Below are positions 5,087 through 27,133 of a stretch of 42,986 nucleotides of DNA, piece after piece. The stretch lies in IMG/VR virus record IMGVR_UViG_3300046318_000380, positions 1-42,986 of that record. One strand, written 5' to 3'. The translations under genes and the position numbers were made by a program. A model generated the notes under the pieces. It was not told where the DNA came from. It saw nothing but the letters and a program-made list of their open reading frames with translations, and made no database searches. Position 1 is the first letter of the stretch. Every line of letters begins with the position of its first letter. This DNA comes from a virus.

Positions 5087-6874
5087 TTATATCTTTATTA
5101 TGTATTTTAAATAAGTTCCTGTGCTAGTACCTGTTGTAATATAAGTTGCAGTAGATAAATTAGGAATTTGAAAATTTCCTGCAACAGTTGAACTAGAACT
5201 ATATCTAGTACCTATTATTCCGAATAATTCTGAATATAAAGGATCAGCAGACGACACAGATGCTCCCGAACAGAATGCCCACCCATTGGGCGGTGTTGTT
5301 CCGCCATACGGTACTATCATTCCTGTAACAAATATGCTTTCGTAAATATCTGATAAGAAATTTTTCTTGGAAATTCTCGATAACGACGATGACGATGATG
5401 CGGTATTAACTACAAGTAAAGTTAGACTGTCGTTTGTTGCTGTAATTGCAGTCTGGGATGTAATGAGGCTCTTATGTGCAGTAGTAGTGAATACAATATT
5501 TTGACTTCCATTAAACACCGATGCATTTGTTGTGCTAACTACCCCTTCAACTCTAAATAATCTATTAGATGCTAACGAAGTTGCAGTTGTTACATTTCCA
5601 AAAATATTAACATGGGTGCCTGTGGTACCTATATTTGATACATAGATGTAAGAAAATGGGTTATTTATTGATCCAATTTCTGCCTCGGAATTAACTGCAA
5701 CAATATCCGATACAGTCAATGTATCTGTAACTGTAGCTTTTCCTAATATTCTAGTAGTTCCTGCAATATTTGTATTTCCACTAATATTAACAGATCCTCC
5801 TACATCAAGTGTACTTGTCGAAGTAGTTGATGTAGTTATAGTCACTTTGTTGCTAAATGTTGCTCCACCATTAACAGATAAAGTAGGATGATTTGCTGTT
5901 AAAAAACTTGCAGTGGTATTAATTCCTACCTTACCATTTGTATTAAAAGAAATATACGATGATTCTTGCAATCCAACACGCATAAATGCGTTTGTTCCTG
6001 TAAAGGTAATATATGAATTAGATGCATCTGCATATATTTTTAATTCAGGAGTAATGCCATTTCTTTTTATAGATAGACCATTTACAGATTCTACAACTAA
6101 AGTGCCTGTGTGAATTTGGCGTGAAGCAGACGGAATTTTATTCTTTAAAACTTCATTGGCTTTTATTATTACACCACGAGATATTTCTAATGATGATGCT
6201 TTATCTGCTAACCCATTAAATTTAGCAGAATTTTTACTAGTAAGATTAACTCCAGGTTTGAGCAAGGAAAACCCATCTATTACAATTCTAGGAGTAAATT
6301 CATAATAAGATATAATTTCAACTACATTTCCATCAACCCAATTTAAAATAATAGGATAACTGCCACCTGTAACTGACTCTATTATTTGAGCATCTATACC
6401 TGTTTTATTACCTGAAATAGATGTACTAGGTCCTACTAAGGTCCACTCATCGCCGTATCTAATCTTTAATTGATTTGAGCTAGTATCTACCCATATGTCT
6501 CCATCTTTTACATTTTGTAAATATTGAGTAACAGGATCATTAATTTGTTGATAAATTCCATTTGCTAATGGCCATTTAGATGTATTCAAATCTCCATTAT
6601 TCACTCTTAAAATTTTTCTGTCAGGATCACTTGTATCGTACCACAATTGTCCTTCTAATGCATGCTGCGGAGGTATAGGACCTGAGAAATTTTCTAATAA
6701 TCTTACAAAATTCTGTGCAATTGATTGACCATATCCTATATATCCAGGGCCTACTAACTCCAAACTAGTGTCGTAATTATTTTTTCCAGTACCAACGGTA
6801 ATACCTGGCACTATTATAGTATTACTTTTATTAGGATCCGAAAAGGTTAATGTGTAAACAGTTTGTATTGACAT
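5087..6874 (-). CDS. Tail fibre protein with phage tail collar domain (595 aa)
   Basis: Largest of the three fibre paralogues and first in transcription order. The N-terminal module has LVGPGYIGYGQSIAQNFVRL, ALEGQLWYDT and KDGDIWVDTSSNQLKIRYG. The central part is long and rich in Ser/Thr/Asn, with LSVNGGATFSNKV- and GGSVNISGNTNIAG-type repeats typical of beta-helical fibre shafts. The C-terminus at 516-575 is a phage tail collar domain: GMIVPYGGTTPPNGWAFCSG, then LYSELFGIIGTRY and NFQIPNLS, the pattern seen in T4 short tail fibre gp12. It is likely a receptor-contacting distal fibre. Confidence 0.85.
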   Translation of the reverse strand: MSIQTVYTLTFSDPNKSNTIIVPGITVGTGKNNYDTSLELVGPGYIGYGQSIAQNFVRLLENFSGPIPPQHALEGQLWYDTSDPDRKILRVNNGDLNTSKWPLANGIYQQINDPVTQYLQNVKDGDIWVDTSSNQLKIRYGDEWTLVGPSTSISGNKTGIDAQIIESVTGGSYPIILNWVDGNVVEIISYYEFTPRIVIDGFSLLKPGVNLTSKNSAKFNGLADKASSLEISRGVIIKANEVLKNKIPSASRQIHTGTLVVESVNGLSIKRNGITPELKIYADASNSYITFTGTNAFMRVGLQESSYISFNTNGKVGINTTASFLTANHPTLSVNGGATFSNKVTITTSTTSTSTLDVGGSVNISGNTNIAGTTRILGKATVTDTLTVSDIVAVNSEAEIGSINNPFSYIYVSNIGTTGTHVNIFGNVTTATSLASNRLFRVEGVVSTTNASVFNGSQNIVFTTTAHKSLITSQTAITATNDSLTLLVVNTASSSSSLSRISKKNFLSDIYESIFVTGMIVPYGGTTPPNGWAFCSGASVSSADPLYSELFGIIGTRYSSSSTVAGNFQIPNLSTATYITTGTSTGTYLKYIIKI

Positions 6875-6876
6875 TA

Positions 6877-7539
6877 TTAAATTCCATTACTTAGGCTCTG
6901 AATCCTAATTGTATAATCAACTTGAATCATTCTGTTTAAACTTTTTTGAACAGGATGAAAAATTACATGAGTGAGTAACATACCTTCATTAGGGCCCACT
7001 GGACTATATGATTTTAATCCTAATTCATCAAACACAAAAGGTGATTCTGAATCTGTTGCATTATCAAATGCAAATTGACCATTAGGTTCTCCGAAATCTA
7101 AAAGACAACTAACTAATACATCACTATATGTAACACCAGCAATATGCCGTGTTTCCATAAAATTTCTTGCAGGATCCAACGAATATGATTGCCTAGCATC
7201 AACTGTTTTATAATATGTTTGATTATATAATTCTGCACCGCTGCCAGCTGTATTAGGAGTTAAATATGTAATAATACCAGTAGGATCTACACGGGTGCCG
7301 CCATTTCCAAATACCATTTCTCCAATGGTGCCTTCACCTTGATTAGAAATACTTTGTGCTAATGCAATGCTAAAATTTTCATAATGAATTGCATTTCTTT
7401 TATTAATAAAAACTTCCTTTGTAACAGGATCATAGATTTTAATATGCCCTTGTATACTAACTCCATTAGATTCATTAGGTTTTGAATTTTGCGGAACGTT
7501 CGCTGTTTTTTGTAAATTACTCATATTTGTGTCATTCAT
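6877..7539 (-). CDS. Conserved virion structural protein of the fibre cluster (220 aa)
   Basis: A soluble protein of the type found beside fibre genes in T4-like aquatic phages, without assigned function. Recognisable segments are GHIKIYDPVTKEVFINKRNAI, NQGEGTIGEMVFGNGGTRVD, FDELGLKS and a C-terminal beta strand, MIQVDYTIRI. The start is ambiguous: the first ATG (7539) coincides with the expected transcription start of a late promoter, so the Met6 ATG at 7524 would be the first codon with a leader (15 nt). Neither start has a good Shine-Dalgarno sequence. The gene lies between the S8 protease and the collar fibre. A role as fibre attachment or baseplate periphery protein is inferred from position only. 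Confidence 0.7.
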   Translation of the reverse strand: MNDTNMSNLQKTANVPQNSKPNESNGVSIQGHIKIYDPVTKEVFINKRNAIHYENFSIALAQSISNQGEGTIGEMVFGNGGTRVDPTGIITYLTPNTAGSGAELYNQTYYKTVDARQSYSLDPARNFMETRHIAGVTYSDVLVSCLLDFGEPNGQFAFDNATDSESPFVFDELGLKSYSPVGPNEGMLLTHVIFHPVQKSLNRMIQVDYTIRIQSLSNGI

Positions 7540-7544
7540 AATGA

Positions 7545-7552
7545 TATTTATC
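7545..7552 (-). promoter_or_regulatory. Late promoter candidate GATAAATA (minus strand)
   Basis: The octamer differs from TATAAATA only at its first base and is identical to three other boundary copies in this window. It lies in the 30-bp gap between the protease gene and the 220-aa structural gene. With T4 spacing the RNA would start at about 7539. It would drive the structural protein and the three fibres. Confidence 0.5.
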
Positions 7553-7569
7553 TATATTTTTTTACTAGG

Positions 7570-9243
7570 TTATCTTCCATACTGAAAAATTCTAGATCTA
7601 GGCCAGGCCAATCCAGCAATTGGTCGTAGACTATGATTAAGTTTAGGACTAATCTGCCCTGAATCTTTTCTTTCTTTGAAAAAAAATAAAAAATTATTTT
7701 CAGATCCTTGCAAATCAGTATAGTCTGCTGGACCGCCTGTAGTTGATGCTATTTGATCTTTTTTTGCATGCGTTTTTAGGTATTCTGTTATTTGTGTTTG
7801 CGATGCCCGAGGCCAAGTTTCTAATATGCATGCCACTACTCCTGCTACCTGGGGTGATGCCATCGATGATCCGCTTTTTTTTGTAATATAAAAATTACTA
7901 TTTCTAGGGTCTGTTGCATAAATTCCTGAATTAGAATTTATACTACTCATTACATATTCGCCAGGTGCATACAGATCGACTCTAGGGCCACAGTTACTAT
8001 ATGTTATTTTAGAATCATCAGATAATGCTCCGATTCCGCCTACACAAATTACACCAGGTGCTGCACTGAAAGTACCTCTATTATAATAATAAGTATTAGT
8101 ACCGTTTGAATAATAGTTATTATAGTCATCAGAGTTTTGAACACTATAATTGTCTATTTTTGAATAACTATTGCCAGCAGCTGATATTACAATAATTCCT
8201 TCATTAATTAAATCCTGAAGATCTGCTTCAATGCCGGCGTTCCTGGACACAGTACTTGTATATCCACCTTCATTAAAAATTCCATACGATAGTAATTGAT
8301 TTTCAGTGAATGGACCATTAATAATCGTGCCTCTATATCTTACAGTTGTTATAGTTGTAATATCTACAACAGAAGTAATCCCATAACTATGATTTGTAAC
8401 AGTAGGATTTTTAACACCTGTTACTGGATTTAGTGCTTTATACCTATGCCAAATTTTAATATAGTCTAAAAATGTACTTACTGAAAAATTAAAATTATCA
8501 AAATTTTGATCTGAGCTATAAGGACTTAAATTATATATGTTTGAATCCTTTGCCCACCCTTGTGTATTTCCTGCAACTATGCCTGCGACATGTGCTCCGT
8601 GATTGTTATTATCTGTCCTATCAGATATTCCATTGCCGTTATCATCAGGGTATGTTGGATCAATATAAGGAGTATAAGTATAAGTGCCAGCTGACCCAGA
8701 CGTAACTGTAGGGATTAACTCAAACCAATTATATTGTATTACTCTAGAGCCACCGGTGCCATCTATATTTTTAGAATACTCAGGATGTAACGGATTTATA
8801 TGACCGTCTACTATTACTACATCTACATTTTTACCACTAGCATTGATACCAACTGTACCCGATACATTTCCAGTTCCGTCGGACCCCCAATTAGCTCTTT
8901 GTTCTCCTTCAATTGAACGTAACAACCCCCAATTTTTAAATGTAGAAGAAACTGTATTAGTTTTGCTCCAGTTAGTACTTGTTTCTACCCATGATGGCGT
9001 AAAGAATGTTCCAGTTTCCTCCATACTAAGTTCAACTGCTTCTACCCTAGGATCTTGTCTAACTAACTCTGCCTCATCATAAGTCATTAAATAGTGAGTA
9101 TTTCTGCTAACCGGTCTTCTTTTACTAAGGGTTACTGCTCTATTTGGAATATATAAATTACCATCTACATTTTCCATATCCTCGTAAAAACTTTCTAAAT
9201 CTTCAAACTTATATAAAGTTACTACGTATTCTTTATAAGTCAT
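7570..9243 (-). CDS. Subtilisin-like serine protease (peptidase S8) with I9-like propeptide
   Basis: A 557-residue subtilase in the middle of the fibre operon. The catalytic triad is complete and in subtilisin order: Asp146 in VDVVIVDGHIN, His215 in NNHGAHVAGIVAG, and Ser460 in SGSSMASPQVAG. The oxyanion Asn358 sits in IVISAAGN, and NHSYG (284-288) matches the substrate-cleft segment. Residues about 1-75 resemble an inhibitor-I9 propeptide (YVVTLYK...HYLMTYDEAELVRQDPRVEAVEL), suggesting autoprocessing. No signal peptide or membrane segment is visible, so it probably acts in the infected cell during virion maturation or as part of the virion. GGAG overlapping the upstream stop gives a good ribosome-binding site. 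The substrate is unknown; nearby fibre proteins or host surface proteins are both possible. Confidence 0.92.
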   Translation of the reverse strand: MTYKEYVVTLYKFEDLESFYEDMENVDGNLYIPNRAVTLSKRRPVSRNTHYLMTYDEAELVRQDPRVEAVELSMEETGTFFTPSWVETSTNWSKTNTVSSTFKNWGLLRSIEGEQRANWGSDGTGNVSGTVGINASGKNVDVVIVDGHINPLHPEYSKNIDGTGGSRVIQYNWFELIPTVTSGSAGTYTYTPYIDPTYPDDNGNGISDRTDNNNHGAHVAGIVAGNTQGWAKDSNIYNLSPYSSDQNFDNFNFSVSTFLDYIKIWHRYKALNPVTGVKNPTVTNHSYGITSVVDITTITTVRYRGTIINGPFTENQLLSYGIFNEGGYTSTVSRNAGIEADLQDLINEGIIVISAAGNSYSKIDNYSVQNSDDYNNYYSNGTNTYYYNRGTFSAAPGVICVGGIGALSDDSKITYSNCGPRVDLYAPGEYVMSSINSNSGIYATDPRNSNFYITKKSGSSMASPQVAGVVACILETWPRASQTQITEYLKTHAKKDQIASTTGGPADYTDLQGSENNFLFFFKERKDSGQISPKLNHSLRPIAGLAWPRSRIFQYGR

Positions 9244-9247
9244 CGTA

Positions 9248-9955
9248 TTACTCCAATTTTAACAAAGATAATGTCGCTGATACACTTCGAGTTACAGAAT
9301 CTTTATTGGTTATTGCAAGATATATAGTAGATGTATTAACTGTATCATTGTTAAATCCAATTATACCAGGTGTAATTAATTGAGTTAGTCCTCCGCTAGT
9401 GGTAATAACTTCTGCAATAATTCCACTTCCTGGTAACGGATCTGTTCCCGATGATCTAGTGCTGTCAGATGTTCTGCTAGCACTGTCTGTATAAATTCTA
9501 ACCCATGCAGGATATGTAGTGGCTACTTTAGATAATACATATGTCTTGAACCCAGTAACATCAACTGTTGCTGTTGTATTAGATGCTAGATTTGCAGTTG
9601 TAGCCGTTATATTTGTTCTTGATACACTACTGATTCCAACAACTGTAGCCCACCCAGTATCATAATCCGAAGATGACAGTTTTACCAAGGATTGCCCTAT
9701 TGAACCTCCTTTAGGTATTCCAGTGCCGCCAACACCCCTAGGTCCTTGAATACCTTGTACCGATTGCACTCCTTGAATGCCTTGTAGGCCTTGTACGCCT
9801 TGAATGGTACCAATCGATGCCGATATATCATTAAACACCTGCCCAACTAAACTATTATATGGTATTCGTTTTGTTACGCGATTGTCTACTACAAGTAAAC
9901 TTGTTAATGTCGATGATGCATTGGTAATTATAGGTAATTGATTTATATTTGGCAT
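9248..9955 (-). CDS. Collagen-like tail fibre protein (235 aa)
   Basis: The N-terminus contains ITNASSTLTSLLVVDNRVTKR, a head seen on many small phage fibre proteins. Residues about 50-80 are a collagen-like run of G-X-Q triplets (GVQGLQGIQGVQ, one SVQ interruption, GIQGPRG), expected to form a short triple helix. The C-terminal half (VDVTGFKTYVLSKV, AWVRIYTDSASRTSDSTRS, GIIAEVITTSG, PGIIGFNND) is a beta-rich domain common at the ends of fibres in aquatic T4-like phages. It lies 3 bp after the giant gene and 4 bp before the protease gene. It is probably a trimeric distal fibre. Confidence 0.8.
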   Translation of the reverse strand: MPNINQLPIITNASSTLTSLLVVDNRVTKRIPYNSLVGQVFNDISASIGTIQGVQGLQGIQGVQSVQGIQGPRGVGGTGIPKGGSIGQSLVKLSSSDYDTGWATVVGISSVSRTNITATTANLASNTTATVDVTGFKTYVLSKVATTYPAWVRIYTDSASRTSDSTRSSGTDPLPGSGIIAEVITTSGGLTQLITPGIIGFNNDTVNTSTIYLAITNKDSVTRSVSATLSLLKLE

Positions 9956-9958
9956 ATT

Positions 9959-12900
9959 TTATAATCCTTGAATAACTGTTCCGTCGTCTAATGTTAATGG
10001 AGTGAAATTTTCATCTGTTAAATCAAGATCTCCTCCATAATAATAACTATCAGGTAATTCTGCACCTTTTGCTCGTAAAAACACAGCTTGTTCAACATTG
10101 CTAGATAATAGAGAATCAGATGTCCATATTTTTCCTTGTCGTTGTATTATAGTTATTCTTGTTCCTGCAGTAATTTCTTCATTAATATTTAACATTAATT
10201 GTTGTGTAGATGTAGTTATATAAAATTCCGGTTCAATTATTGTTATACTTGCATCAGAATTGTCATAAGAAATATTACTATCATTAATTTCAATTTCTGT
10301 CTTTCTTAGTTTTCTTCCTCCATAATATACTTCAACTTGATCTACTGCATTAATAGTCGGCAACAGCGAAATCCCGTCACCTATTACTCCTTCTGAAAAT
10401 GTAAGAGTTGATGCGCTAATTATATAGGTAGTTGTATTCGAACTTGGTATATTTTGTTCTAATACATATTCAACTGTGTTAATAGTTTGTTTAATACTTT
10501 GATCTATCACTGTGGTGCCTGCCTGGGAATAATAAGCAGGGCCTGTACCTAAGGTACTTCTTCTAAGTTGAGAAAGAACATTTCCATTTTTAGAAAAATA
10601 TTCAATTCTTTCTCCATCTATCAAAATTACTCCAGGTAAATTTTGAGCAGGATTTGGATGAGTTAAACTATTAGCATTTTTAAGATATATTTCAGTATCT
10701 GTATGGTACAACGGAGATTCTAATTTCGTTGAATGATATTTTGATAGTCTCTTATAATGCTGCCTTCCAAATATATCTTTAAAAATTCTATAACCAATCA
10801 GATGACCGGCTGATAACGGTGGATTAATAGTTGCGATAATAACCTCATCTTCTGGATTGGTATCAATTAAATCGCTAACATTAATAGTCATATAATTATC
10901 TTGAAGATAGAATTCCTGACCATTAACTAACATTCGATCTCCAATTGTAACCCATACATAATTTTGATTCAACACAGGAAGACTTAATTTATATTCTCTC
11001 GCAAGATTTTGCTGAAAACGTTCTGTGCGAATATTCATATTTTCATTGTTAGTGAAAGATATTATCTGAAGAGTAGTATCAGAAATACCAGGTGTAAAAT
11101 AAACATTATTTCCAATTACAATATAATCATAGTTTATTAAACTTTCAATTGCTATTATATCTCCCAATTTTAAAAGATTATTAATGATAGTAATTGTTTC
11201 GTTTGCAGAATTTACATTATAATCAAACCCCGGACGTAAAATAACTCCATTAACATATACTTTTATATTTGTTAAATTATAAACATTAGGGCTATTTTTT
11301 TTGTTGTCTATATCAAACGTTATAGTATTATCGTTAACTTGGTAATAACTTACAGATGGTGGACGTAATCTACGACGAGATGTCATTGGGCCAACTGTTA
11401 CTATTACTTGAGAACTATACGGTTCAAGCGCCGATGGATATAACACAAGCGATTGAGATGAAACCGTAGTTCCTGTGGATATTACATATGTCTCTTCGTT
11501 AAATTTATTAAATTCAGCAAACATTGATTTAAAAAACCAAGCTTCAACATTAAATTTTCCAATAGTTGCAGGAAGAATTACAGCAACAGATGCCCTATTA
11601 TTTTGTGGATGTACAGGTCCTAGTATATAGCCTACGCCACTTCCGGTATAAGGGAATATTTCAACACCGTTAACTGTAACGTATACTGAATTAATATCGT
11701 CAATATTTAATAAACTAGATACAGTTGCAGTAGCAGTTGTTGCAGTTTTATTATCAACGGCTACGTATCCAGAATCCATTTGAGAATAATCTCCAGAGTA
11801 TCCTGCAAACACAGTAGTATAAAATGCTCTTCCATTTTCTATTTGAGGAGCTAATATCAACGTAGATCCATCTAAGAAATATTGATTAGTGTTAGTAAAT
11901 TGTGCCGATACTGCTCTTTCAAACAATGTTCCATTAAAATACACTAATATACCAATTGCATTATCGGGTTCAATAGGAACTAACCAATTGGTAGTTTCTC
12001 CTGCAATAACTGGAATAGAACCAGAAATAACTGTAGGAGATGTAGTTCCGGGATTTGTATAAACGTTAATACCAACACTATCCATTGTATGTCCGGGCAC
12101 AAATTCTTCAGGTGCATAACTAGAATTTGGATTGATAAATTTGTCACCATCGATTACAATATCCTCGGGTGCTATTCCTAGTGCACCCGACAATGTTTCA
12201 TTCCATGCACCGCCATTAATCTCAGAATCTAAGCTAGATGGAGAATCATTATTTGACCATAATTCTACTGTTAAGAATCCTAATAATGAAATATCAATTT
12301 CTGTATTAACTAATGGATCTAGCCCGTCAATTGTAATAATTGCCTTTGGTGGAATACTGTTGCTAGGTACTAGTGTCCATCCGGTGTATGTCGGAGATGC
12401 ATTTATACCTAATGCGGTAATTTCGGAATAAGGTGCATATGTATTAATAATAACGGTACTTGTACCAATCGATGTAGTCAATATATTATCTAATAAATTT
12501 GTAGATGGATTTATATCCATTGTTACAGAATAAATTCTAGCAATTGATAATGTCGAAACTTCAGCTGTAGTCGTAGATAATATAGATGTTGCAGTAACAC
12601 TAAATGTATTATTAGAGCAAGTGGATATCACATATTCATTTTCATATCCACTTGTTGCAATTCCTGATACTAATACTGTGTCACCTACTTTAAAATCTCC
12701 ATTAAAGTTATCCTTAGTTACAAAAACAATAGTTGAGCCCGGCATAACATTGTTAGCTGTTGCCTTACTAATAGTATAACTAGGAGATGAAATTGTTATT
12801 ACATTTGTTAATGAATTTATTGATTCAACAGTTGTACCACTTCTAATAGCAGTAGCATGTACTGAATCTAAAATTGATATATTTTGTCCAGGAATAATTC

Positions 12901-15900
12901 CATGTACGTCTGAAAGTCGAAGCGTTGTATCTGATTTACTTACACTACTTGTTAATTTTGATTTTGCATAGGTACTGATTAAATTACCCCATGGTGCGGT
13001 ATCAAATGATGAGGTTCCCCATGGCGCTGTCTCATTAAAAGTCAATCCTTGCAGTTCAGTTTGAGGATATTCAAGTCCAGACATTAACATGGAATATTCT
13101 TTTCCTGCCATTGTATTTGTAGGGCTGTAATATTTGTCAATCCTATCAATTGCATTAAATAAATCTATATTTTTATTATATGTAATTTTAAATAATTGTC
13201 CTTCTGCTGGAATGTAATTTAAAAATACAAATCTAGAATATTTCTTAGAATACCCTGCATATTCTTCTGTATAATATTCTATATTGTAATCTGCAGATAA
13301 TACAAGTTTTCCATCGACTGTTGGAACAATTTTTAATTTATCAAAATCTGCAAGCCATGATAATATAAATTTATTTTTATCTCCTTGACATATAAAAGTA
13401 TCAGTAACAGAAATATCTTCAATTTCTGATTTCTTAGAAATTCTATCAAATCTCATACCAATAATGTTACTTCTAACTTTATCGTTAGATATAATAGGTG
13501 ATGCTGTTGCAACAGATGTAACATTAGGTCCACCATTAGATATAACAATGTACGGACTTATGGTATAATTACTTCCTGGATTTGTAACTATTATATCATA
13601 CACTGACCCATTTCTAATATAAGCTGTTGCAGATGCACCTGTTCCTGTATCACCGGGATATGTAATGATATTCACTGTCGGATTTTGAGTATATCCTGAC
13701 CCTTTATTAGCAATCTCTACGCGATCGACTTTAAATTTATAATTTTCTGCCCAAGATTTATACGGTGTTTCTAGCAGTAAAGGATCTCCGGGTTCTACTA
13801 TTGTAAATTTGTTAGTTTCTGTATTAAAATACGACGGTACATCAAAATCTGTAATTTGTGCTGCGCCTATTTCTCCTGAAAAATTATCAAGAACCGTATA
13901 ATTAGACGAATACCCTCTTATATTTGTATGATATGGTTTAACTTCTTTTATATATTTTTCAAAATACTCTTCATTATTCAACTTGTAAACAGGACGCTGA
14001 TCTAATGATCCTAATATGTTTTGAACATTTATAAATGAAGTTTTAAATGCCCAATCTAATAATTTTTGTTCTGTTAATGCATACTTTACCGCAGCAAAGA
14101 AAAACAAATTCCAATTAACTTTTAATGTATTAATGAATATTTCATTCTTTAATGCCAATAAAATATAATACAATTCTAGATCGGGTATTTGATCGTACAA
14201 TGTCTCTTCTAACGTTGCTTTATCGTACGCATACATCCCAGAATCATAGTCCCATAATGTATCTAATAATTGCACAGTCCCTTCTTCGCTATATACAATA
14301 TTGTACAATGGACTAAAATTACCATTAATAGTTTTTTCAAGAATAATGTATTTTCCTGATCCATTATTGTTAACTTTAACATATTCCAAATCGGTAATTT
14401 CAGTTAATGAATTTAATTCATATAAATCTGAAACAGTGTATTTTATATTCTTAAATTCATTATAACTGCTACTTTGCCAATCTATTTTTTTCCAATATAA
14501 TGGAGTATTATAGGATTGAGTTTTAATTCTGATCCAGTTACCCGTTGAATAATCATATGAATGTTTTGTCCATCTATTTCCATATTCTGCATTAACTTGA
14601 ACAATTACAGTATGCGATCTAACTTCTAACGTTGGAGTAACTGTAAAATTATATCCTGCATCAAATATAGTAACATTAACTATACTGCCGTATTCATTTA
14701 ATTCTGTTAATAAAGAAGCTGTATTCTTAGTATTAGATATTATTTTTACAGATGGTGGATTTCTATATCCAAATCCAGGATCTATAATATCAACACCATA
14801 AATTTTTCCGTTAACAACAGTACAGGTTAATTTAGCTTGTTTAAAATTAACGGTTTCAACTTCTCCTAACGTTTCAACATCCTCAACAATTAAATCATAT
14901 TCTCTCGAATAGATGTCAGGAATTTCTTCTTTCTTATTCAATAAATTAAATGAATAGTTACCTGTAATTTCATTACTCAATAATACAGAATTTGCAAAAG
15001 TTATTAGATTTCTTACAGCTTGCAATCTATCTTTGAATAATGTCTGCTGAGGCCTAATTCCTATGCCGTATCTATTCCTTGAAGTTAAGTTGTTAGAAGG
15101 AACTAAATTTCCATGTTCATCGTGCCCTAATAAACTATCAAATAATTTCTTTTCTAATAGTGTATTAGGAACACTATTTGCTACACCTTCGGTTAATAAT
15201 AACCATTCTGTATGTCTAGGAATATTATTATCAATTGTATCTGTTGCAATAGATGCATTAATTCTATTGCCAGATAATATAGGTTGTACATTTGCAAATG
15301 CAATAGTATCCTTTGACAATATTTCTACAAATTTTAGTCCATTTGCAACAGGATCTGCAATTATAGATGCTACCTGATAACTACTTAATCTTCTATTTTT
15401 AACACTAGGTATTACAACTTTATTTTTTACCCAGAAATAATATACATTTTCAAAACTTCCTGTTACATTATTGTAAATTTGTTTAACAGAAATAATACTA
15501 TTATCTGGGTATTTAGGTTGCCCACTTATACCTCGAGTTAATCCATCTGTCGTATCTGCTACTGCTGCCCATTCACTAGGCAACACATCTGATTTAACCC
15601 ATTCATATACATCAATAGTTGCTCCAGGAAATAGCTTACCCCAATTATTTTTTCTAAAAATTTCACTACCTTGTTCATACCAGGTATATTTTGCTGTACT
15701 TAAATCCCACCATAAATCACCAACACGCTCGTCTAACCAATTTATTTCTGCGTCATTTACTGTACCTAATCTACCAATAGAATATACTGCTGGATCAAAT
15801 GCAGCTTTATATTTTAATTCTTGATCTGCTATTCCTGCAATTTTACCTTTCAATGGATCGATTACTTCGAGATACTCAATAATTTCTTCATCAAATGAAT

Positions 15901-18900
15901 TAATTAATGAAATTCTTTTTAATCTCGAGACATCTACTGTATCTTCTTGTTCGTGTAAAACATTCCAGCTGTTAACAGTTTGATCAATTTTATCAAATAT
16001 AAACAACTTAGATGTATCAGGATATGATGTTTCTATATACGAAGGAGCACCTACATATATTGCATCATTTGTAGATGCTACAGAATTTCCAAATCTACTT
16101 CCACTAATTACTTGAGAGTTTGATATTTCATCTGCAGGAACAAAATACTCTCCTAATCTGTTGTAAACATAAACTTCTCCGGCATCCAGAATAGGACCTG
16201 TAAATTGTGTCGTATTACTATCAAATGTTGTTTCGCCCGATTCTGACAATAAATCAAATTTCATTAATTTAGATCTATTTGTTCCTAAAGAACTTATTAC
16301 CAATGTATCTTCGTTTTCATTGATAGAAATAGAAGATCCAAATTTTAAATCATTATAAGACACAGGGTTCGATACTATCTGCCACAAAGAATATTGTCCA
16401 TTGCTTTGGATTTTATATATTGATACTTTTCCTTTAGACTCATCTACCGAAGAATATTCCGGATCAGCAACAATTAAATATTTTCCAGATGCAGATACTG
16501 TTAAATCTAGACCAAATCTACCATTAACATCGTAAGGAGGATTAATAGTCTGGTTCAATACAAATGTATTATTTGTTGCGGTATAAACTACAACTTTTCC
16601 TGTTGAAGAAAAGTCAGGTGCACTAATAGCAATAATAGACCCATTACTTGAACCAGCTATTTTATATCCCCATTTATCACCAGCAGTTAAACCAGCTGGC
16701 GACGGAAATGATATTCCTCCCGGATGAGCAGATACTGATACAGTACCATTATTTTTATTCAAATGATATGCATATACCTTTCCTGGTAAACTAGCAGCAG
16801 AAGTATCATCGCCTGGTGCTCCTATAAGCAACATAGTAGAAGTTGTAGCAGATACCTGACTAACAAATATCGAATGCCCAAATCTAGAATGTGCAGCAGC
16901 ATAAGGGTGCGCTATAACAGCATTTGTTATTTCTTCATTAAACTTTGTATTGTTGGTGCTAATTTTTACTAAACCTTCAACTGCATAAGAACGAGTATAG
17001 CCAGACCCTGTGCTTAAAATTACCACTCCTGTTGTATTAGCAGCAACTACGTTAGATGCAGCAGGTGCTCCTGCAATATATAATTCTTTAGCAGCGTCAT
17101 GTGCCAGCGAATATCCAAATTCAGTTACCAATGAAGATGAACAATATAAGATATCGTGACTGTTTATTGTATGTTCAAAATCTTTACGATAAGCATTTTC
17201 AATTTTTGTAAATGCTTGTACTCTACCTAAACTAGATGTACCTGTGGTATTCCAACTCGGCGATGAAACCATCATTATAGGAGAATTATCAGATGCATAC
17301 ACAGTATGTCCAAGTTGTTGACCTAAAATATAATCATTTGATTCTATATATTTTGCAGAATAATTTTTAATTTTTTCATAAACTTGCCATTTTCCGCCTA
17401 GCCCTTGATCAACCCAAAATTTTTCACCTTCTTCCAATTTTAGTAAATCATTATAATTTGCTAGATCTTCAAAATCTGCATACCTCGATTCATCAAATTT
17501 AAAAAGAGCGCCGTATGCAAGTAGTTCTGCATTTTCAATAGATGTTAGGCTAGATAGTACTGTAAATTGATTTAATTTAGGCACACTCGAAACTACATGT
17601 ACACCATTTACCTGTTCATTAAAGTTAACAACAGATACAATGTCTCCTACTGATAATCCATGGTGTGTATCTGTTACAAAGGTAATAGCAGCTCCAGGTG
17701 AACTTACAAACACTCCGGCAACATCAGAAGATTGTCTTATATATCTATAAACGCTCCAGTCTCCATTTTCTAAAAACCCTACCCAAAATGTATTACCTTG
17801 CTGAATAATAGAATTATTTGCAATATCTAACAAACTAGATTTATTATAAGCAGTTGCAGTTACATCATCTAATCTAACATACCCTGCTGTAGTTAATTCC
17901 AAATTAGTATCTGTCCATGTGCCAGCAGACGTAATAAACGTAGCTGTAGATACATATTCATCGGGTGTTATTAAACAATCCGTTGGTTGAATATAATTTA
18001 TTAAAGGATCTTGTTGATCCGGCATAGAATTAACAAATTTAACTAGGTATGGATTTTCTAAAGAAGTTCCTTCAGTTAATGTAAATTCAAGTTCATTATA
18101 AGTTTCAAAACCACCGTAATGCCCGGCCCTAAACGCCCATTCTTCATTAAATTGAATTGCACCTTTATCTAATGTTTGACTTGCCTTAGATAATTTGTCA
18201 ATTGAATTTTTTGTGCCTTTATCTTTAATAAATCCTTGATAAAATTTGTATTGACTAATAGGGTTGGTAAAAATGTTATCAAGATATGTTCTCGGAGTAT
18301 AACCTATTAAATGCTGGGCTAATTGTTGCTGATTGTAATCAAAATTATCAATATCAAGACTGTAAAAATCTTCAAATTGATTTATTTTATAATCAAAATT
18401 AGGAAGTAGTCCAGCTACTGGTTTTTCAGGAAGTTTTACCCATTGTGCAAAATCAAATTCTCTAGAATTTAATACTTTAGATATAGATTCATAATAAGAA
18501 CCATTATATCTAACAACTTCGCCTGGTAAGTAAACTTGATATGATTTCCAGTCTGTTATTTCTACAGAATCGTATACAAATCCAGGACTATACAAATCAC
18601 CATTCCAATTTCTTGTTCTAAATCCAGATAATTTAATTCTACGTTGTTTGTAACCCGATTCAGGATCATAAATTGTATCATTAAAAATCGTAGAATTATT
18701 GAATACCAATGCATGTTCTTTTTGTACAGAATTCAATGTGGCAAAAAATAATCCTTCTTCTGTATTAATAGAAGATATAGTACAATACCCGTCTTCCCTA
18801 GATAAAGTAAATTTATCAATAGGGAATGGTTTTCCATCAGCCTTTAACAAGCTGTATTCATATTTTCCTGATGAAATATTATCAACAACAGAATTTACAA

Positions 18901-21900
18901 ATTGATATTTTAATTTGTCAGAGAATGGACTTAATGTAATTAAATTATTATTTGCCCAATTTTGTGTTGTCCAATATAGAAATTCTTTTCCTGTAAATTT
19001 CCAATCTATTACCTCTCCAAGGTCTGAATTAAATTCATCAAAAATAAATCCTTGACTCTCTAACCATGCACCGTATCCAACGATTACATCATACACATCT
19101 TGCGATGTTGTAAATTCTGATCCATAAGTAATCTTTGCAGATGTTGATTCAAATCTCGACGGCAATTGTACAGATGCTCCTCCTTTTACAGGTAGAGAAC
19201 TTAATTGCTGAAATACAGTAGCATTAAAATTAGCTTCAGCAGTATGTCCAATTTTAACTCTATAAAATTTTCCATTATATCTTACTACCTGTCCTTGCTT
19301 ATAATACCGAGATGTAGGGTTAGCATTTGCTGTGGTGTTATCTATTGCAGAAAGCCCTGTATTGCCATTATTTACAGTACCTGTCCATTCTGTAAATGGT
19401 TCAGATATTCCACCTACTGTTACAGTACCGGAAACTGATGATTTAATAGGTTTTAAAATTTCAAAATACGGTTCTGAAACATTATATCCTTTAATTACAA
19501 AATTTCCATTAACTTTTTGTACCACAATGCCAGAAATGCTAATTGATTTTATAGGATTACTAATATTTAATATTAATGAATAATCTTCTGGTGGCAATAA
19601 CAATCCAGGACTAGTTGATATAGGATCTATAGAATCAATAGTAATCTGTAATTTCTCTTTGCTAGTAAATCCTCCGAGTTTGTGGAATAAATTAAAATCA
19701 AAATATTCAAGATCTTGTGCTAATTCTGTTGTATAATTTTGATTTTTTAATTTACCTATTTCTGCAATATATACCCCGAACCCTGCTAATTGATTACCAT
19801 TCTGTCCTTCAATCAACAGTTTTCTAGGATTAAGATATAAATCGTCCTGAGTATATGTAACTTGATTTAAGGAATTTATTTGCGTTCTACTTACATCATA
19901 CATTTTTGAACAATAAGATAATGGATCAAGTAATGCAGCAAGAATATTAGAAACAAAAGGCCAATAGCTACTACGTCTCCATGCAGTTTCCGCAGGAGAT
20001 TGATCTCCAAAAGACCAAGCCGATTTAGTATCATAATAATTAGTATCAGATATTAAAAACTCAGATGGAGTTTTTAGCTTTCCGTCGTCATCTACTGGAA
20101 TAATTAATGAAAAATCAGGTCTAGCATAATTATCATTTATCTTAGTCGATGGTGGCTCATCTGTATATCCTAATGTAATTGCATTAATTAATGCTGTCCT
20201 TTTAGAACCTGGCGTCCAACTATAATATGTATCCCACCAACTAGGTTTATTATCATGTCCTAACATTTCCCACGGGTGAGTATGTGGTTGATCAGTATCA
20301 AAGAAATATTTGTACAATCCTCTCCAGAATCCAGAGACCTGAGTTTTAAAAACTGTATCAATTCCATTTTTATAATTCCATGAGAATGGTTCTCCTTCGT
20401 CAAAAGAAAGGTTAGAATATGTGTCTACACCATTCATTCCTGCCCATCTAATATAATCTTCTATTAAAATAGAATTAACATCAGATGTAGAAAATTTAGT
20501 ATCTCTAAATGCACCAGGAATAATACTTTTTATATCAAAAATATTAGAGTTATATTTTACTTTTATATTGTTGTAAATTCTCTTTTCTAATTCCAATATG
20601 ATTAAATCTCTATAATCATTATATGCAGCCATTATGCTACCATCATGCCCTTTAATAACTGTAACAGAACCAGAAATATATGTTAAATCTTGATAAATTT
20701 CAGGTTTAAATGCAGGATATAATCCTAATTTTGTAGGGGTCGGAGGAATATATGATCCTAATGTATTCGAATATACATGAATTGCAATTTTATCATTAAT
20801 TGTTAATTCTGTTAATATATTAATGGATCCATTTATTTTATCAAATATATAATCGCTATCTACAATCATCTGAATATCATTAATATATACCAAAACAGAT
20901 TGAAAACTCAATAACGATAAATCAAAGTCAATACCTACAGGATACTCGACATTTTCAACATCTGTTACAGTAAATGTACGTATTATTTTATCTTGTCCAA
21001 ATCCTGCCATGTCAGATCGATAGTATGGAGATCTATAATCTTTTACATTATTAATTTCATTTAAAACATAATCAAGCGCCATTGATGCAGATAATTGACC
21101 ATCTACTTTTGATAAAGTTCTTAAAAAGTTTGATTTAAATTGGTTGTAGTGATTTGCAGATTGTCTTAGCGCATCTACTACATTATGTTCTTTTTTACCT
21201 AAAAATATTTCTGCAAAAGAGATTGGATTTGCATTAACAATTAACCTAGTTCCAAATTTTGTATAGTCTGCAAAGTCTCTAAAATTAGATCCAGTATATC
21301 CTAATATTCCATTCATCATTGTGGTAGCATGATCGGATAATTCGCTAAATGTTATGTCCGATATTGGCCCATTTAATGGATTATTAATAAGAGATATAGG
21401 AGTTTCATAAAACCCATTACTATTTGGTGTTTGGTTTGTTATTATTTTAAATAGTATCGTTTTGTCTTTAGCAACGGTATTGCTAAAATTTACAATCACT
21501 CGGTCAGCTGTTGCAGTAAAAGTTGACGGTATTTTTACGTCGTTAATATATGCTGTTACCGATAATGGAGTATCAATAGGCAAATCTAAAGAAGTGAGAT
21601 ATACACTATTTGTTGCAGTTGTTAGAGTTTGAATTTCTACAATAGGAACTTGATAATTTTCTGCTTCTTTCCAGACATTGGTAAGTGTACCTGTTCCGTC
21701 AAGATTATTAATCTTAAGATACGTCACAGATGTAGATACTAATTTACTTTGATTATTTGCTACAACAGTTATAGAATCTGTCATAAAATAATTGTTAAAC
21801 AAATAACTTCCTACACCTACACTATTTTGATATAATAACGGAAACCCTAGTACTGTATCTGCTGTGCCAGACCCAACAGAATATCCAAAAATTTTATTTC

Positions 21901-23236
21901 CAGAAAAATTGTTAGTATCAGTAACTTTGGTATAGCTTACTCCAAATGAATCAAATAAATCAAATAACGGAGGCTGATTTAATTTGTTATGCTGCTGAGA
22001 AAATATCCATTTTCCTTCATCTATATCGTAATACCAACTAGTACCTGCATATGCATTTCCAAAGTTTACTGCTATAGAATTCATATCATCAGGTGTAGAA
22101 TCTTCACTTAAAGTAATTGTAGGTGATAGCCCTGCTGAATATGCTACTTTATATATTTTTCCCCTAACATTGTTATCTCCGTCTGCATTAAAAATTATTC
22201 TATCCCCGTGCTGTAATAAAGTCCCATCAACATAATAACCATGGGACCCATTTACTGTTTCCAATGCATTAGTAGTTGTAACATCCATATATTCAACATT
22301 CTTGATTCCGGTGTTACCAAATTTATAAAGCTGTATATTAGCTACAAATTCAATGATAGGGCGTTGTGCTCTAGAATTTAATGGAAATACAGGTGTTGTA
22401 TCATTGATATTTGCTATAATTTCTATTATTTCTTTGTGAAACCATCTATTATAACGAGACCATGGATTTAAATCTTTACTAGCACGATTAATGGTAATAT
22501 ATTCAGCATTTAACGGGAGACGCTTATCACCATCAAAAGGATAATCATCAAAACTATCAGAATCAAATGTTTCATTATAAAAAACATTCATAGATTCATA
22601 ACCACTTAATAAATTATAATCAATAAGTTTTATCGATGATCCTACTCCTTCAACAATATAGGTATTGTTCCAATACATCTGTTGCAATGTATTTTTTGCA
22701 AATGAAATTTTCATTCCATTCGATAATTTATATCCGTTACTCATTGTGTATGATTGCTGGCCTACTATGTCAACATCAACATTTAAATCAATTTGATCAA
22801 CAAGAATAGGACTTGGACCTTCTGGTAACCAATAATATTGATTATAATTTACCAATTTGTCCCAATCAATTAATGGATCGTATGAATAAAATTTAGAACG
22901 TAATAATGTGTCTACATTACTTGTATTTGCACCTTGATTATAAAGATCATTTAAAAAATCGTCATATGATATTGCATCTGTAATATTAGAATTTTGATCT
23001 TTGAAAACTAATGCAGGTTCTAAAGAATAATTATTTCTAAAAGATAAAACGTCTTTTAAATAAAAATCAGTTAATGGATTATAATTGGGAGTTATTTTAG
23101 ATCCTATATATCCATCGATTCGTTCTAAATCAGGAGTTTGTATAAATTGATCTAATGTACTTGATAAAAATTTTGAATTTTTATCTGTTCTAAAATATTC
23201 TGGTAATAAATTAACCGATTTCTTTTTATCTGCCAT
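9959..23236 (-). CDS. Giant baseplate/tail structural protein (4425 aa) with integrin-like propeller
   Basis: This single uninterrupted frame of 13.3 kb is almost a third of the window. Its N-terminus (LLPEYFRTDKNSKFLSSTLD, then DWDKLVNYNQYYWLPEGP) matches the very large structural proteins that follow gp6 in T4-like aquatic phages. The sequence is a mosaic: several VYVNGV-type beta domains, a 7-repeat FG-GAP propeller at about 1965-2420, GxGYxxxPxV repeats (for example GFGYRNPPSV, GSGYTQNPTV) around residues 2800-3250, and a C-terminal KxTEIEINDSNI region. Also visible is KPYHTNIRGYSSNY, a motif I recall from phage structural proteins. T4 has gp7, gp8 and gp10 after gp6; this protein may take over peripheral wedge roles, which is inference. 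Translation is probably coupled to gp6 (1-bp gap). Confidence 0.85.
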   Translation of the reverse strand: MADKKKSVNLLPEYFRTDKNSKFLSSTLDQFIQTPDLERIDGYIGSKITPNYNPLTDFYLKDVLSFRNNYSLEPALVFKDQNSNITDAISYDDFLNDLYNQGANTSNVDTLLRSKFYSYDPLIDWDKLVNYNQYYWLPEGPSPILVDQIDLNVDVDIVGQQSYTMSNGYKLSNGMKISFAKNTLQQMYWNNTYIVEGVGSSIKLIDYNLLSGYESMNVFYNETFDSDSFDDYPFDGDKRLPLNAEYITINRASKDLNPWSRYNRWFHKEIIEIIANINDTTPVFPLNSRAQRPIIEFVANIQLYKFGNTGIKNVEYMDVTTTNALETVNGSHGYYVDGTLLQHGDRIIFNADGDNNVRGKIYKVAYSAGLSPTITLSEDSTPDDMNSIAVNFGNAYAGTSWYYDIDEGKWIFSQQHNKLNQPPLFDLFDSFGVSYTKVTDTNNFSGNKIFGYSVGSGTADTVLGFPLLYQNSVGVGSYLFNNYFMTDSITVVANNQSKLVSTSVTYLKINNLDGTGTLTNVWKEAENYQVPIVEIQTLTTATNSVYLTSLDLPIDTPLSVTAYINDVKIPSTFTATADRVIVNFSNTVAKDKTILFKIITNQTPNSNGFYETPISLINNPLNGPISDITFSELSDHATTMMNGILGYTGSNFRDFADYTKFGTRLIVNANPISFAEIFLGKKEHNVVDALRQSANHYNQFKSNFLRTLSKVDGQLSASMALDYVLNEINNVKDYRSPYYRSDMAGFGQDKIIRTFTVTDVENVEYPVGIDFDLSLLSFQSVLVYINDIQMIVDSDYIFDKINGSINILTELTINDKIAIHVYSNTLGSYIPPTPTKLGLYPAFKPEIYQDLTYISGSVTVIKGHDGSIMAAYNDYRDLIILELEKRIYNNIKVKYNSNIFDIKSIIPGAFRDTKFSTSDVNSILIEDYIRWAGMNGVDTYSNLSFDEGEPFSWNYKNGIDTVFKTQVSGFWRGLYKYFFDTDQPHTHPWEMLGHDNKPSWWDTYYSWTPGSKRTALINAITLGYTDEPPSTKINDNYARPDFSLIIPVDDDGKLKTPSEFLISDTNYYDTKSAWSFGDQSPAETAWRRSSYWPFVSNILAALLDPLSYCSKMYDVSRTQINSLNQVTYTQDDLYLNPRKLLIEGQNGNQLAGFGVYIAEIGKLKNQNYTTELAQDLEYFDFNLFHKLGGFTSKEKLQITIDSIDPISTSPGLLLPPEDYSLILNISNPIKSISISGIVVQKVNGNFVIKGYNVSEPYFEILKPIKSSVSGTVTVGGISEPFTEWTGTVNNGNTGLSAIDNTTANANPTSRYYKQGQVVRYNGKFYRVKIGHTAEANFNATVFQQLSSLPVKGGASVQLPSRFESTSAKITYGSEFTTSQDVYDVIVGYGAWLESQGFIFDEFNSDLGEVIDWKFTGKEFLYWTTQNWANNNLITLSPFSDKLKYQFVNSVVDNISSGKYEYSLLKADGKPFPIDKFTLSREDGYCTISSINTEEGLFFATLNSVQKEHALVFNNSTIFNDTIYDPESGYKQRRIKLSGFRTRNWNGDLYSPGFVYDSVEITDWKSYQVYLPGEVVRYNGSYYESISKVLNSREFDFAQWVKLPEKPVAGLLPNFDYKINQFEDFYSLDIDNFDYNQQQLAQHLIGYTPRTYLDNIFTNPISQYKFYQGFIKDKGTKNSIDKLSKASQTLDKGAIQFNEEWAFRAGHYGGFETYNELEFTLTEGTSLENPYLVKFVNSMPDQQDPLINYIQPTDCLITPDEYVSTATFITSAGTWTDTNLELTTAGYVRLDDVTATAYNKSSLLDIANNSIIQQGNTFWVGFLENGDWSVYRYIRQSSDVAGVFVSSPGAAITFVTDTHHGLSVGDIVSVVNFNEQVNGVHVVSSVPKLNQFTVLSSLTSIENAELLAYGALFKFDESRYADFEDLANYNDLLKLEEGEKFWVDQGLGGKWQVYEKIKNYSAKYIESNDYILGQQLGHTVYASDNSPIMMVSSPSWNTTGTSSLGRVQAFTKIENAYRKDFEHTINSHDILYCSSSLVTEFGYSLAHDAAKELYIAGAPAASNVVAANTTGVVILSTGSGYTRSYAVEGLVKISTNNTKFNEEITNAVIAHPYAAAHSRFGHSIFVSQVSATTSTMLLIGAPGDDTSAASLPGKVYAYHLNKNNGTVSVSAHPGGISFPSPAGLTAGDKWGYKIAGSSNGSIIAISAPDFSSTGKVVVYTATNNTFVLNQTINPPYDVNGRFGLDLTVSASGKYLIVADPEYSSVDESKGKVSIYKIQSNGQYSLWQIVSNPVSYNDLKFGSSISINENEDTLVISSLGTNRSKLMKFDLLSESGETTFDSNTTQFTGPILDAGEVYVYNRLGEYFVPADEISNSQVISGSRFGNSVASTNDAIYVGAPSYIETSYPDTSKLFIFDKIDQTVNSWNVLHEQEDTVDVSRLKRISLINSFDEEIIEYLEVIDPLKGKIAGIADQELKYKAAFDPAVYSIGRLGTVNDAEINWLDERVGDLWWDLSTAKYTWYEQGSEIFRKNNWGKLFPGATIDVYEWVKSDVLPSEWAAVADTTDGLTRGISGQPKYPDNSIISVKQIYNNVTGSFENVYYFWVKNKVVIPSVKNRRLSSYQVASIIADPVANGLKFVEILSKDTIAFANVQPILSGNRINASIATDTIDNNIPRHTEWLLLTEGVANSVPNTLLEKKLFDSLLGHDEHGNLVPSNNLTSRNRYGIGIRPQQTLFKDRLQAVRNLITFANSVLLSNEITGNYSFNLLNKKEEIPDIYSREYDLIVEDVETLGEVETVNFKQAKLTCTVVNGKIYGVDIIDPGFGYRNPPSVKIISNTKNTASLLTELNEYGSIVNVTIFDAGYNFTVTPTLEVRSHTVIVQVNAEYGNRWTKHSYDYSTGNWIRIKTQSYNTPLYWKKIDWQSSSYNEFKNIKYTVSDLYELNSLTEITDLEYVKVNNNGSGKYIILEKTINGNFSPLYNIVYSEEGTVQLLDTLWDYDSGMYAYDKATLEETLYDQIPDLELYYILLALKNEIFINTLKVNWNLFFFAAVKYALTEQKLLDWAFKTSFINVQNILGSLDQRPVYKLNNEEYFEKYIKEVKPYHTNIRGYSSNYTVLDNFSGEIGAAQITDFDVPSYFNTETNKFTIVEPGDPLLLETPYKSWAENYKFKVDRVEIANKGSGYTQNPTVNIITYPGDTGTGASATAYIRNGSVYDIIVTNPGSNYTISPYIVISNGGPNVTSVATASPIISNDKVRSNIIGMRFDRISKKSEIEDISVTDTFICQGDKNKFILSWLADFDKLKIVPTVDGKLVLSADYNIEYYTEEYAGYSKKYSRFVFLNYIPAEGQLFKITYNKNIDLFNAIDRIDKYYSPTNTMAGKEYSMLMSGLEYPQTELQGLTFNETAPWGTSSFDTAPWGNLISTYAKSKLTSSVSKSDTTLRLSDVHGIIPGQNISILDSVHATAIRSGTTVESINSLTNVITISSPSYTISKATANNVMPGSTIVFVTKDNFNGDFKVGDTVLVSGIATSGYENEYVISTCSNNTFSVTATSILSTTTAEVSTLSIARIYSVTMDINPSTNLLDNILTTSIGTSTVIINTYAPYSEITALGINASPTYTGWTLVPSNSIPPKAIITIDGLDPLVNTEIDISLLGFLTVELWSNNDSPSSLDSEINGGAWNETLSGALGIAPEDIVIDGDKFINPNSSYAPEEFVPGHTMDSVGINVYTNPGTTSPTVISGSIPVIAGETTNWLVPIEPDNAIGILVYFNGTLFERAVSAQFTNTNQYFLDGSTLILAPQIENGRAFYTTVFAGYSGDYSQMDSGYVAVDNKTATTATATVSSLLNIDDINSVYVTVNGVEIFPYTGSGVGYILGPVHPQNNRASVAVILPATIGKFNVEAWFFKSMFAEFNKFNEETYVISTGTTVSSQSLVLYPSALEPYSSQVIVTVGPMTSRRRLRPPSVSYYQVNDNTITFDIDNKKNSPNVYNLTNIKVYVNGVILRPGFDYNVNSANETITIINNLLKLGDIIAIESLINYDYIVIGNNVYFTPGISDTTLQIISFTNNENMNIRTERFQQNLAREYKLSLPVLNQNYVWVTIGDRMLVNGQEFYLQDNYMTINVSDLIDTNPEDEVIIATINPPLSAGHLIGYRIFKDIFGRQHYKRLSKYHSTKLESPLYHTDTEIYLKNANSLTHPNPAQNLPGVILIDGERIEYFSKNGNVLSQLRRSTLGTGPAYYSQAGTTVIDQSIKQTINTVEYVLEQNIPSSNTTTYIISASTLTFSEGVIGDGISLLPTINAVDQVEVYYGGRKLRKTEIEINDSNISYDNSDASITIIEPEFYITTSTQQLMLNINEEITAGTRITIIQRQGKIWTSDSLLSSNVEQAVFLRAKGAELPDSYYYGGDLDLTDENFTPLTLDDGTVIQGL
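15960..17340 (-). other. Region encoding seven FG-GAP-like repeats (integrin-like beta-propeller)
   Basis: Within the giant protein (residues about 1965-2420) seven consecutive repeats share the pattern xxFGxSV...(15-20)...xhhIGAP...G-hhhY. Cores in order are GQQLGHTVYAS/MMVSSP, TEFGYSLAH/LYIAGAP, SRFGHSIFV/LLIGAP, DKWGYKIAG/IAISAP, GRFGLDLTV/LIVADP, LKFGSSISI/LVISSL and SRFGNSVAS/IYVGAP. Integrin alpha and related FG-GAP domains use exactly seven such blades. Placement of the propeller in a baseplate wedge protein suggests a ligand- or glycan-binding face, which is inference. Confidence 0.75.
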
Positions 23237-26200: not shown

Positions 26201-26633
26201 CATTCCAACCAATAGTTGTATTTGCTAAATTAACACCATTAGAATCATATACATTATCACTGGTAGATATAGCTGTTAATTTTAAAAATCCACTTGCAGG
26301 AGTATTTCTTGCAGGATTATAACTAATTAGTTGTGCAAGACGTAAAATACTGTCTCTTCGTTGTGCGGTTTCTAAAAAATTTTCTCTAGCATTTAAATCA
26401 ACTCTGAAACTTAAATTTTGTCCCAAATAGGCAATTAAATCAATTAATGCAATGTATTCACTAGAGTCAATAAAATCGTTAAATTCTTCGGGATAATTTT
26501 CGCGAAGATAAGAAATCATAGTTCTTCTTAATGTTTCGAAATCATAACTTTTAAAGTCTGCACTTCGAAAAGATTGGTATATTTTTTTCCAATCTTCACT
26601 AACCAGTAATTTTGTATTTGTAGCAGGAATCAT
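23238..26633 (-). CDS. gp6: Baseplate wedge protein gp6 (T4 gp6 family, enlarged)
   Basis: The N-terminus is diagnostic for T4 gp6: FRSADFKSYDFETLRRTMIS, then YPEEFNDFIDSSEYIALIDL, LIAYLGQNLSFRVDLNAREN and QRRDSILRLAQLISYNPARN (residues about 22-110). T4 gp6 forms the continuous inner ring of the baseplate wedges that controls contraction. At 1131 residues this copy is far longer than T4 gp6 (about 660), with extra material in the middle and C-terminal parts. The end carries a LKTRILSAINSFFALENWDF segment and FIIVPKG, typical of the gp6/J-like C-terminal domain. It follows gp25 after a 49-bp gap that holds a late-promoter-like octamer. Confidence 0.95.
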   Translation of the reverse strand: MIPATNTKLLVSEDWKKIYQSFRSADFKSYDFETLRRTMISYLRENYPEEFNDFIDSSEYIALIDLIAYLGQNLSFRVDLNARENFLETAQRRDSILRLAQLISYNPARNTPASGFLKLTAISTSDNVYDSNGVNLANTTIGWNDATNPDWYQQFINIMNSAMNSNFGNPSDRQTISGIATEQYKISSANIDVPIFNFSKNINGIPMSFEIVPCTFSGKDYVYEQPPAPAQQFSIIYKNDNQGSGSADTGFFTHFKQGSISLARFSLDNPVPNEIVGVNTPDINNTDVWVWQLDNNDNFDTLWTQVPSVIGNNVIYNSLNKNLRTIYAVTSRDNDQIDLNFADGVFGDLPKGNFRLFYRQSNGLTYVIKPEQMSGVVIEVPYTNASGRTHTLQLTMSLQYTVSNASGPESNASIQLKAPQSYYTQNRMITGEDYNITPLTAGTDILKIKSVNRISSGLSKYFDLSDVSGSYSRTNIFANDGILYQEERDEFSELEFTSRNQVLAFIKNSLAPMISATSMRSFYFEKYNNPNLELLSLTWTEVNRTPGQSRGYISNALGIQSVGSYAEENLQYFQVGSLIKFNPPTGKYFDQKNNLKTIPSGGIPQGGRSYIWSRVQQVIGDGSNSGIGKLEDGTGPIIFSSIVPTGAIPVEIIPRYIDVLKFSIENEVANICMTQRNFGLTIDSISRTWDIITNSNLNITDSFSLVNQNNYEDIGIDSSWLVAFVWTGKSYQVRYRVLDYIFESEKETAFFIDETAINYDFTNNTVIKDKIDVLSINTSLNSNLGVDQSWQIDGPVVEYDGYIQPKKVKISFYDYNDVGQIIDPESFNNIVQPLSTSTETTFRENFVYFKKSADGQRYSLADRDEFIAYPTEDKVIDENKIDTQKFYFYDPSINVVKYWSTVTSSLVYTDEYFARTGRSDLKFHYIHNSGKERRIDPSKSNIIDIYVLTLNYDNDFRNWASGTLSKEPLAPTSQELEQNYGETLKLKKAISDEIVFHPVKYKILFGDNAPVNLRAKFKAVRNSSKSTTDNDLKTRILSAINSFFALENWDFGQSFYFSELSTYVMNQLTPDLTNFIIVPKGNAPFGSYFEVACLSNELFISGATVSDIEIIDAVTASQLKTSSTIITTTGI

Positions 26634-27125: not shown

Positions 27126-27133
27126 TATTTATT
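27126..27133 (-). promoter_or_regulatory. Weak late promoter candidate AATAAATA ahead of gp25
   Basis: The minus-strand octamer overlaps the gp5 stop codon. T4 spacing would place the RNA start at 27120, on the A of the gp25 ATG, giving a leaderless message. Because TAATAAAT is common at stop codons in AT-rich DNA, chance is a serious alternative. Confidence 0.25.

Follow-up and report, generated by a model that had tools for sequence, protein, structure and literature searches.

What role does a complete subtilase play when its gene lies among the tail-fibre genes of a virus? The question is raised by IMG/VR virus record IMGVR_UViG_3300046318_000380, of which positions 1 to 42,986 (the window) were analysed. 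A sequence-only reading of this DNA had proposed three roles for the enzyme: processing of fibres, digestion of host surface proteins by a protease carried in the virion, or a host-range module. Here, we examine the gene, its neighbours and its relatives, and weigh these options against one another.

A predicted intact S8 protease among baseplate genes

The protease gene and its surroundings are summarised in Table 1. The protein matches Peptidase_S8 (PF00082) in Pfam over residues 137–497 (E 1.1e-28), and the PHROG 9158 profile, which has no named function in PHROG, spans nearly its full length (residues 3–554, E 5.3e-103). The triad residues D146, H215 and S460 lie in S8 motifs and N358 provides the oxyanion residue, bearing out the original description of a complete subtilase. 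Degradation of the triad in homologues, which would have counted against a working enzyme, was not seen: all four residues are invariant across ~100 proteins at 27–61% identity (the counts in Table 1 come from a 101-member family alignment, each giving the sequences that reach that position).

Table 1 Features of the protease locus, with positions numbered along the window.
Feature	Position	Strand	Basis
S8 subtilase gene, 557 aa, ATG start	7570..9243	(-)	PF00082, PHROG 9158, AF2
I9-like pro-domain, residues 1-72	9028..9243	(-)	model strand/helix order
Linker, residues 73-90, candidate auto-cleavage region	8974..9027	(-)	pLDDT and structural alignment
Predicted mature catalytic domain, ~residues 85-523	7675..8991	(-)	Z 35.5 to aqualysin I 4dzt
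Catalytic Asp146 codon	8806..8808	(-)	conserved 101/101
Catalytic His215 codon	8599..8601	(-)	conserved 100/100
Oxyanion Asn358 codon	8170..8172	(-)	conserved 99/99
Catalytic Ser460 codon	7864..7866	(-)	conserved 98/98
C-terminal double tail, residues 523-557, ERKDSGQISPKLNHSLRPIAGLAWPRSRIFQYGR	7573..7677	(-)	shared by fibC-following S8 and S53
Downstream gene, PHROG 11259 (function unassigned)	6877..7539	(-)	E 7e-70
Partner fibre gene, 235 aa	9248..9955	(-)	directly upstream, 4 bases before protease start
fibC, fibre C-terminal jelly-roll domain	9251..9640	(-)	AF2 pLDDT 95.5, pairing in relatives
Collagen-like G-x-y stretch of fibre, residues 49-79	9719..9811	(-)	translation
4425-aa virion structural protein upstream of fibre	9959..23236	(-)	PHROG 10938, E 4e-301

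An AlphaFold2 (AF2) model of the protease, built from an alignment of 57 sequences, has a mean pLDDT of 89 and a pTM of 0.81. It aligns with proteinase-K-type enzymes, among them aqualysin I and proteinase K itself, with Z-scores of ~34–36 over 270–280 residues, and with PCSK9, a further fold relative, at Z ~32. The PDB matches are all S8 enzymes with no kumamolisin among them, giving no support for an S53 identity, and the T4 gp21 prohead protease does not appear among the protein's Pfam and PHROG matches. Fold, triad and oxyanion Asn are thus common to the mature domain and to proteinase K and aqualysin I (MEROPS S8), whereas the window protein differs from these enzymes in its insertions, its C-terminal double tail and the lack of a secretion signal: as noted from the start, no hydrophobic signal sequence is visible at the N-terminus (MTYKEYVVTLYKFEDL). 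By sequence and by model, the reading frame is a full-length S8 subtilase, predicted to be an intact enzyme.

T4-like baseplate genes surround the protease gene. As first reported, it adjoins a collagen-like fibre gene, which lies upstream and holds a GGAG for the protease start inside its last codons. The downstream PHROG 11259 gene is a conserved neighbour of the protease in its closest relatives. The agreement of gene identity, catalytic residues and neighbours with that description is far beyond chance.

The N-terminus resembles a subtilase pro-domain

The propeptide-like N-terminus also found support in the model, where residues 4–72 follow the beta-alpha-beta-beta-alpha-beta order of an I9 pro-domain, a likeness in strand and helix order only. 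The Pfam I9 family (PF05922) has no match in the window protein and matches weakly in 18 of 50 relatives (best E 0.0025), so that "I9-like" is the right term and assignment to I9 by sequence is marginal. A search of PDB sequences with a pro-domain profile returned one match, judged to be due to chance. Mean conservation is 0.63 for residues 1–72 and 0.55 for residues 136–500; by this measure conservation of the pro-domain appears to be no lower than that of the catalytic domain, a further difference from proteinase K and aqualysin I.

Residues 79–82 of the linker fall below a pLDDT of 50, and the mature N-termini of proteinase K and aqualysin (residue 1) and of PCSK9 (residue 153) align at model residues 85–91. 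On the model, the linker is where we infer that the protease would cleave itself.

The partner fibre ends in a conserved C-terminal domain

A survey of synteny in relatives, which the sequence-only reading had called for, revealed a specific partner domain, which that reading had missed along with the C-terminal tail of the protease. In 93 of the 98 S8 loci with a visible upstream gene, that gene terminates in the domain that we call fibC. The fibre genes vary in length from 190 to 1724 aa and in their N-termini, and are separated from the protease by −19 to +9 bases; fibC reaches the C-terminus of the protein in 95 ORFs. The five exceptions are the P-SSM2 clade (L010–L013), which has another C-terminal fibre domain, and L074. 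The L074 locus carries tandem S8 genes (5986–13520) with no fibC upstream, the second of them with BD-FAE and cadherin-like domains.

The AF2 model of fibC is a confident jelly roll that has no match among PDB structures at Z ≥8 (best Z 7.7), and no known family could be named for it. When fibC itself was used as the query, 90 fibC ORFs were recovered, a set that includes overlapping loci and near copies; the next gene encodes an S8 protease in 72 and another protein in 18. The 195-kb record of Sf-CH1b also has fibC, and a search of that record with PF00082 gave no match.

A sedolisin can take the place of the S8 protease

In five of the 18 cases without S8, the gene following fibC encodes a 425-aa sedolisin (S53), and the one that was searched matches kumamolisin at E 1.4e-36. 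Four relatives (L187–L190) have an operon of the window type with a sedolisin in the S8 position and the C-terminal tail retained. A query with the S53 protein fetched eight loci, four of them on contigs that repeat earlier loci; in all eight the gene just upstream carries fibC and the sedolisin bears the same tail. S53 was found only in relatives L117–L128 and L187–L194; the query had no match among phage records at E 1e-3. These kumamolisin-type enzymes thus occupy the same operon place and bear the same tail as the window protease, but have different catalytic residues and a different pro-domain, and belong to a different family. A Pro-kumamolisin domain is present in one S53 lineage; in the other there is no space for it. 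Because a tailed sedolisin can replace the S8 enzyme, it would be catalysis, rather than the S8 fold as such, that is kept.

In a tree of fibC domains, three S53 rows stand apart, in three places among the S8-paired fibres, and one S53-paired fibre is sister to an S8-paired fibre with a support of 94. The tree is poorly resolved, and the S53-paired fibres may have a single origin.

A short C-terminal tail accompanies fibC

The S8 and S53 proteins encoded after fibC close with a tail made of one or two R-P-x-x-G-x-x-[YFW]-P-R units; in the AF2 model of the window protease the last 11 residues are disordered. Scored within 30 residues of the C-terminus, the motif is present in 6/6 S53 proteins, 116/133 S8 proteins and 5/638 other ORFs (plus-strand ORFs of at least 100 aa in the loci). 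Fisher's test for S53 against the rest gives p 5e-12, which is only a guide since the sequences are related. Among the S8 proteins, 108 combine the tail with fibC and four have neither, all four from a single clade, that of P-SSM2 (4/4). The sole odd row in this comparison, L142, is probably an artefact of ORF picking, because L142 has fibC by its fetch. A tblastn search of phage records with a 37-aa consensus tail gave no match, the query being too short for a conclusion.

Four of the five tailed "other" genes belong to fibC operons of the same kind, positioned after a gene of an unnamed family that we term X. Family X follows fibC in 11 of the 18 non-S8 cases and has members of ~490–930 aa (L102–L106, L135, L137, L143, L168 and L178). 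In the complete X loci examined, a tailed protein comes directly after X, usually of 76–120 aa and in one S-SCSM1 case of 368 aa. L071 has a weak, overlapping match to the X profile and no tailed follower. The 368-aa protein was considered as an alpha/beta-hydrolase on account of a GHSQGG motif, which neither Pfam nor PDB searches confirmed. In these operons the partner of fibC is tailless and the tail lies on a separate small protein, which counts against a simple reading of fibC as what the tail binds.

The family is widespread in aquatic phages

A tblastn search with the protease matched 42 phage records, all at less than 60% identity and mostly of Synechococcus and Prochlorococcus phages. 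Several already carry the annotation "subtilisin-like serine protease", so the novelty at first implied for the protease itself does not stand: by sequence, it adds a member to a family that is known but functionally unnamed. None of the matched isolate records states a role for it. A scan of viral contigs with the single protein found only two loci, whereas an alignment-based scan recovered the family, with at least 572 relatives, of which 80 were kept. Megablast of the locus against phage records gave no match.

The PHROG 9158 proteins of the cyanomyoviruses (Sf-FR1, S-H38, S-WAM2, S-H9-1, and T4-GC292 of P-SSM2) belong to the same family at 27–42% identity and share the triad and, in most, the type of neighbour. 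The window phage differs from these viruses in its gp6-type baseplate protein (23238–26633), which is nearest to those of Atu_ph07, Phosso, K64-1 and RaK2 (~35% identity). The best gp6 matches are to jumbo phages of Agrobacterium, Sinorhizobium and Klebsiella, with Synechococcus phages among the 73 matching records. Judged by these matches, the window phage and the cyanophages are not closely related.

Several relatives depart from the common layout. In three (L095, L096 and L097), the S8 domain is interrupted between its catalytic residues by ~300 extra residues, and the inserts of the two that were tested, L095 and L097, have no match in the PDB. The S-CAM1 protein that follows fibC (L101, 5317–7572), annotated "putative proximal tail fiber", has an S8-related region (PHROG 9158, E 1e-23). 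Of 57 relatives, 19 matched Pfam 2C_adapt (best E 0.0017), a likeness attributed to chance.

A divergent relative is labelled as a virion protein

In the record of phage S-SCSM1, the label "virion protein" is attached to an S8 relative (189576–193811 of the record), the fibC fibre, the family X protein paired with it and the tailed protein of 368 aa. We counted 47 such labels, against 45 MS-detected proteins in the publication, and the label very probably marks detection by MS. The S8 relative is only 27% identical to the window protein and belongs to the clade without fibC and tail. Presence in virions is therefore supported for this divergent relative, and by extension we infer it for the window protein.

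The same S8 relative carries LamG domains (E 1.2e-25). Other fusions join the protease to BD-FAE and cadherin-like domains (L074) and, in the S8 relative of ACG-2014h, to a feruloyl-esterase-like part (E 6e-8). Going by their sequence assignments, the fused domains point outward. The LamG-bearing S8 protease of S-SCSM1 (L011, 7815–12050) carries the annotation "baseplate wedge subunit".

Proposed function

Digestion of host surface proteins by a virion-borne enzyme, an option that overlaps with the host-range module, is the best supported of the three roles first suggested, because of the fibC pairing, the replacement by S53, the LamG and feruloyl-esterase-like fusions and the S-SCSM1 "virion protein" label; fibre processing is weakened. 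We lean, with modest confidence, towards a zymogen protease mounted on the fibre and acting on proteins of the host surface. The protease would be translated directly after its partner fibre and would fold with the help of the I9-like N-terminal domain. It would then mount on the fibre, with fibC as the dock and, as the most likely plug, the protease's tail of R-P-x-x-G-x-x-[YFW]-P-R repeats, and release or displacement of the pro-domain would allow it to cut host surface proteins during adsorption. A working analogy is provided by gp37/gp38 of T2- and S16-type phages, where the product of a gene next to the fibre gene is located at the fibre tip and encounters the surface of the host (PMC6957217, PMC12892980); gp38, unlike the protease, is a non-enzymatic adhesin, and no sequence relation is implied.

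The main rival reading is a maturation protease that, as the particle is assembled, cuts its partner fibre or a different baseplate protein, whether or not it then stays in the particle. Its zymogen layout and its pairing with a structural gene in a late operon would suit such a role, and T4-like phages do use an assembly protease, gp21, for the head. We nevertheless consider fibre maturation less likely, because fibC fibres occur without this protease and the PF00082 search of Sf-CH1b found no S8 gene beside its fibC. Enzymes of the S8 and S53 families would, moreover, need the same cut site, and fusions to LamG and esterase-like domains are ill-suited to assembly.

Far less probable is action inside the infected cell, in host takeover or lysis, with adjacency to the fibre reflecting late expression only. 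Subtilases with pro-domains can act inside cells and the protease has no signal sequence, but neither the S-SCSM1 label nor the way in which widely differing phages keep the same C-terminal fibre domain as its fixed partner fits this role. Least probable of all is a purely structural or receptor-binding part of the fibre whose catalysis no longer matters, for which PCSK9, a fold relative that acts as a binder, is the precedent, because the catalytic residues are invariant in ~100 proteins and another protease family with the same tail substitutes.

Beyond the fibre-mounted protease itself, fibC and the tail could form a general plug and socket for exchangeable proteins (S8, S53 and others) in aquatic phages, a wider proposal that we hold more tentatively. 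Unlike the protease, the module of fibC fibre, tail and exchangeable proteases seems to be undescribed; a limited search of open-licence literature found no description of the protease's role or of the fibC/tail pair. If these proposals are correct, many aquatic phages bear a protease on the tail fibre, giving a testable handle on how they deal with host surface proteins. Mounting would be modular, in that a single fibre domain together with a single short tail at the C-terminus would hold unrelated catalytic domains, and fibC plus tail would serve as a reading rule for fibre-borne enzymes now annotated as hypothetical or tail-fibre proteins.

Elsewhere in the window, the gene at 27132–29423 encodes a gp5-type hub protein whose C-terminal part is endolysin-like (PHROGs 13211 and 181), and adjoining genes at 1440–2815 appear, from their translations only, to be DHFR-like and thymidylate-synthase-like.
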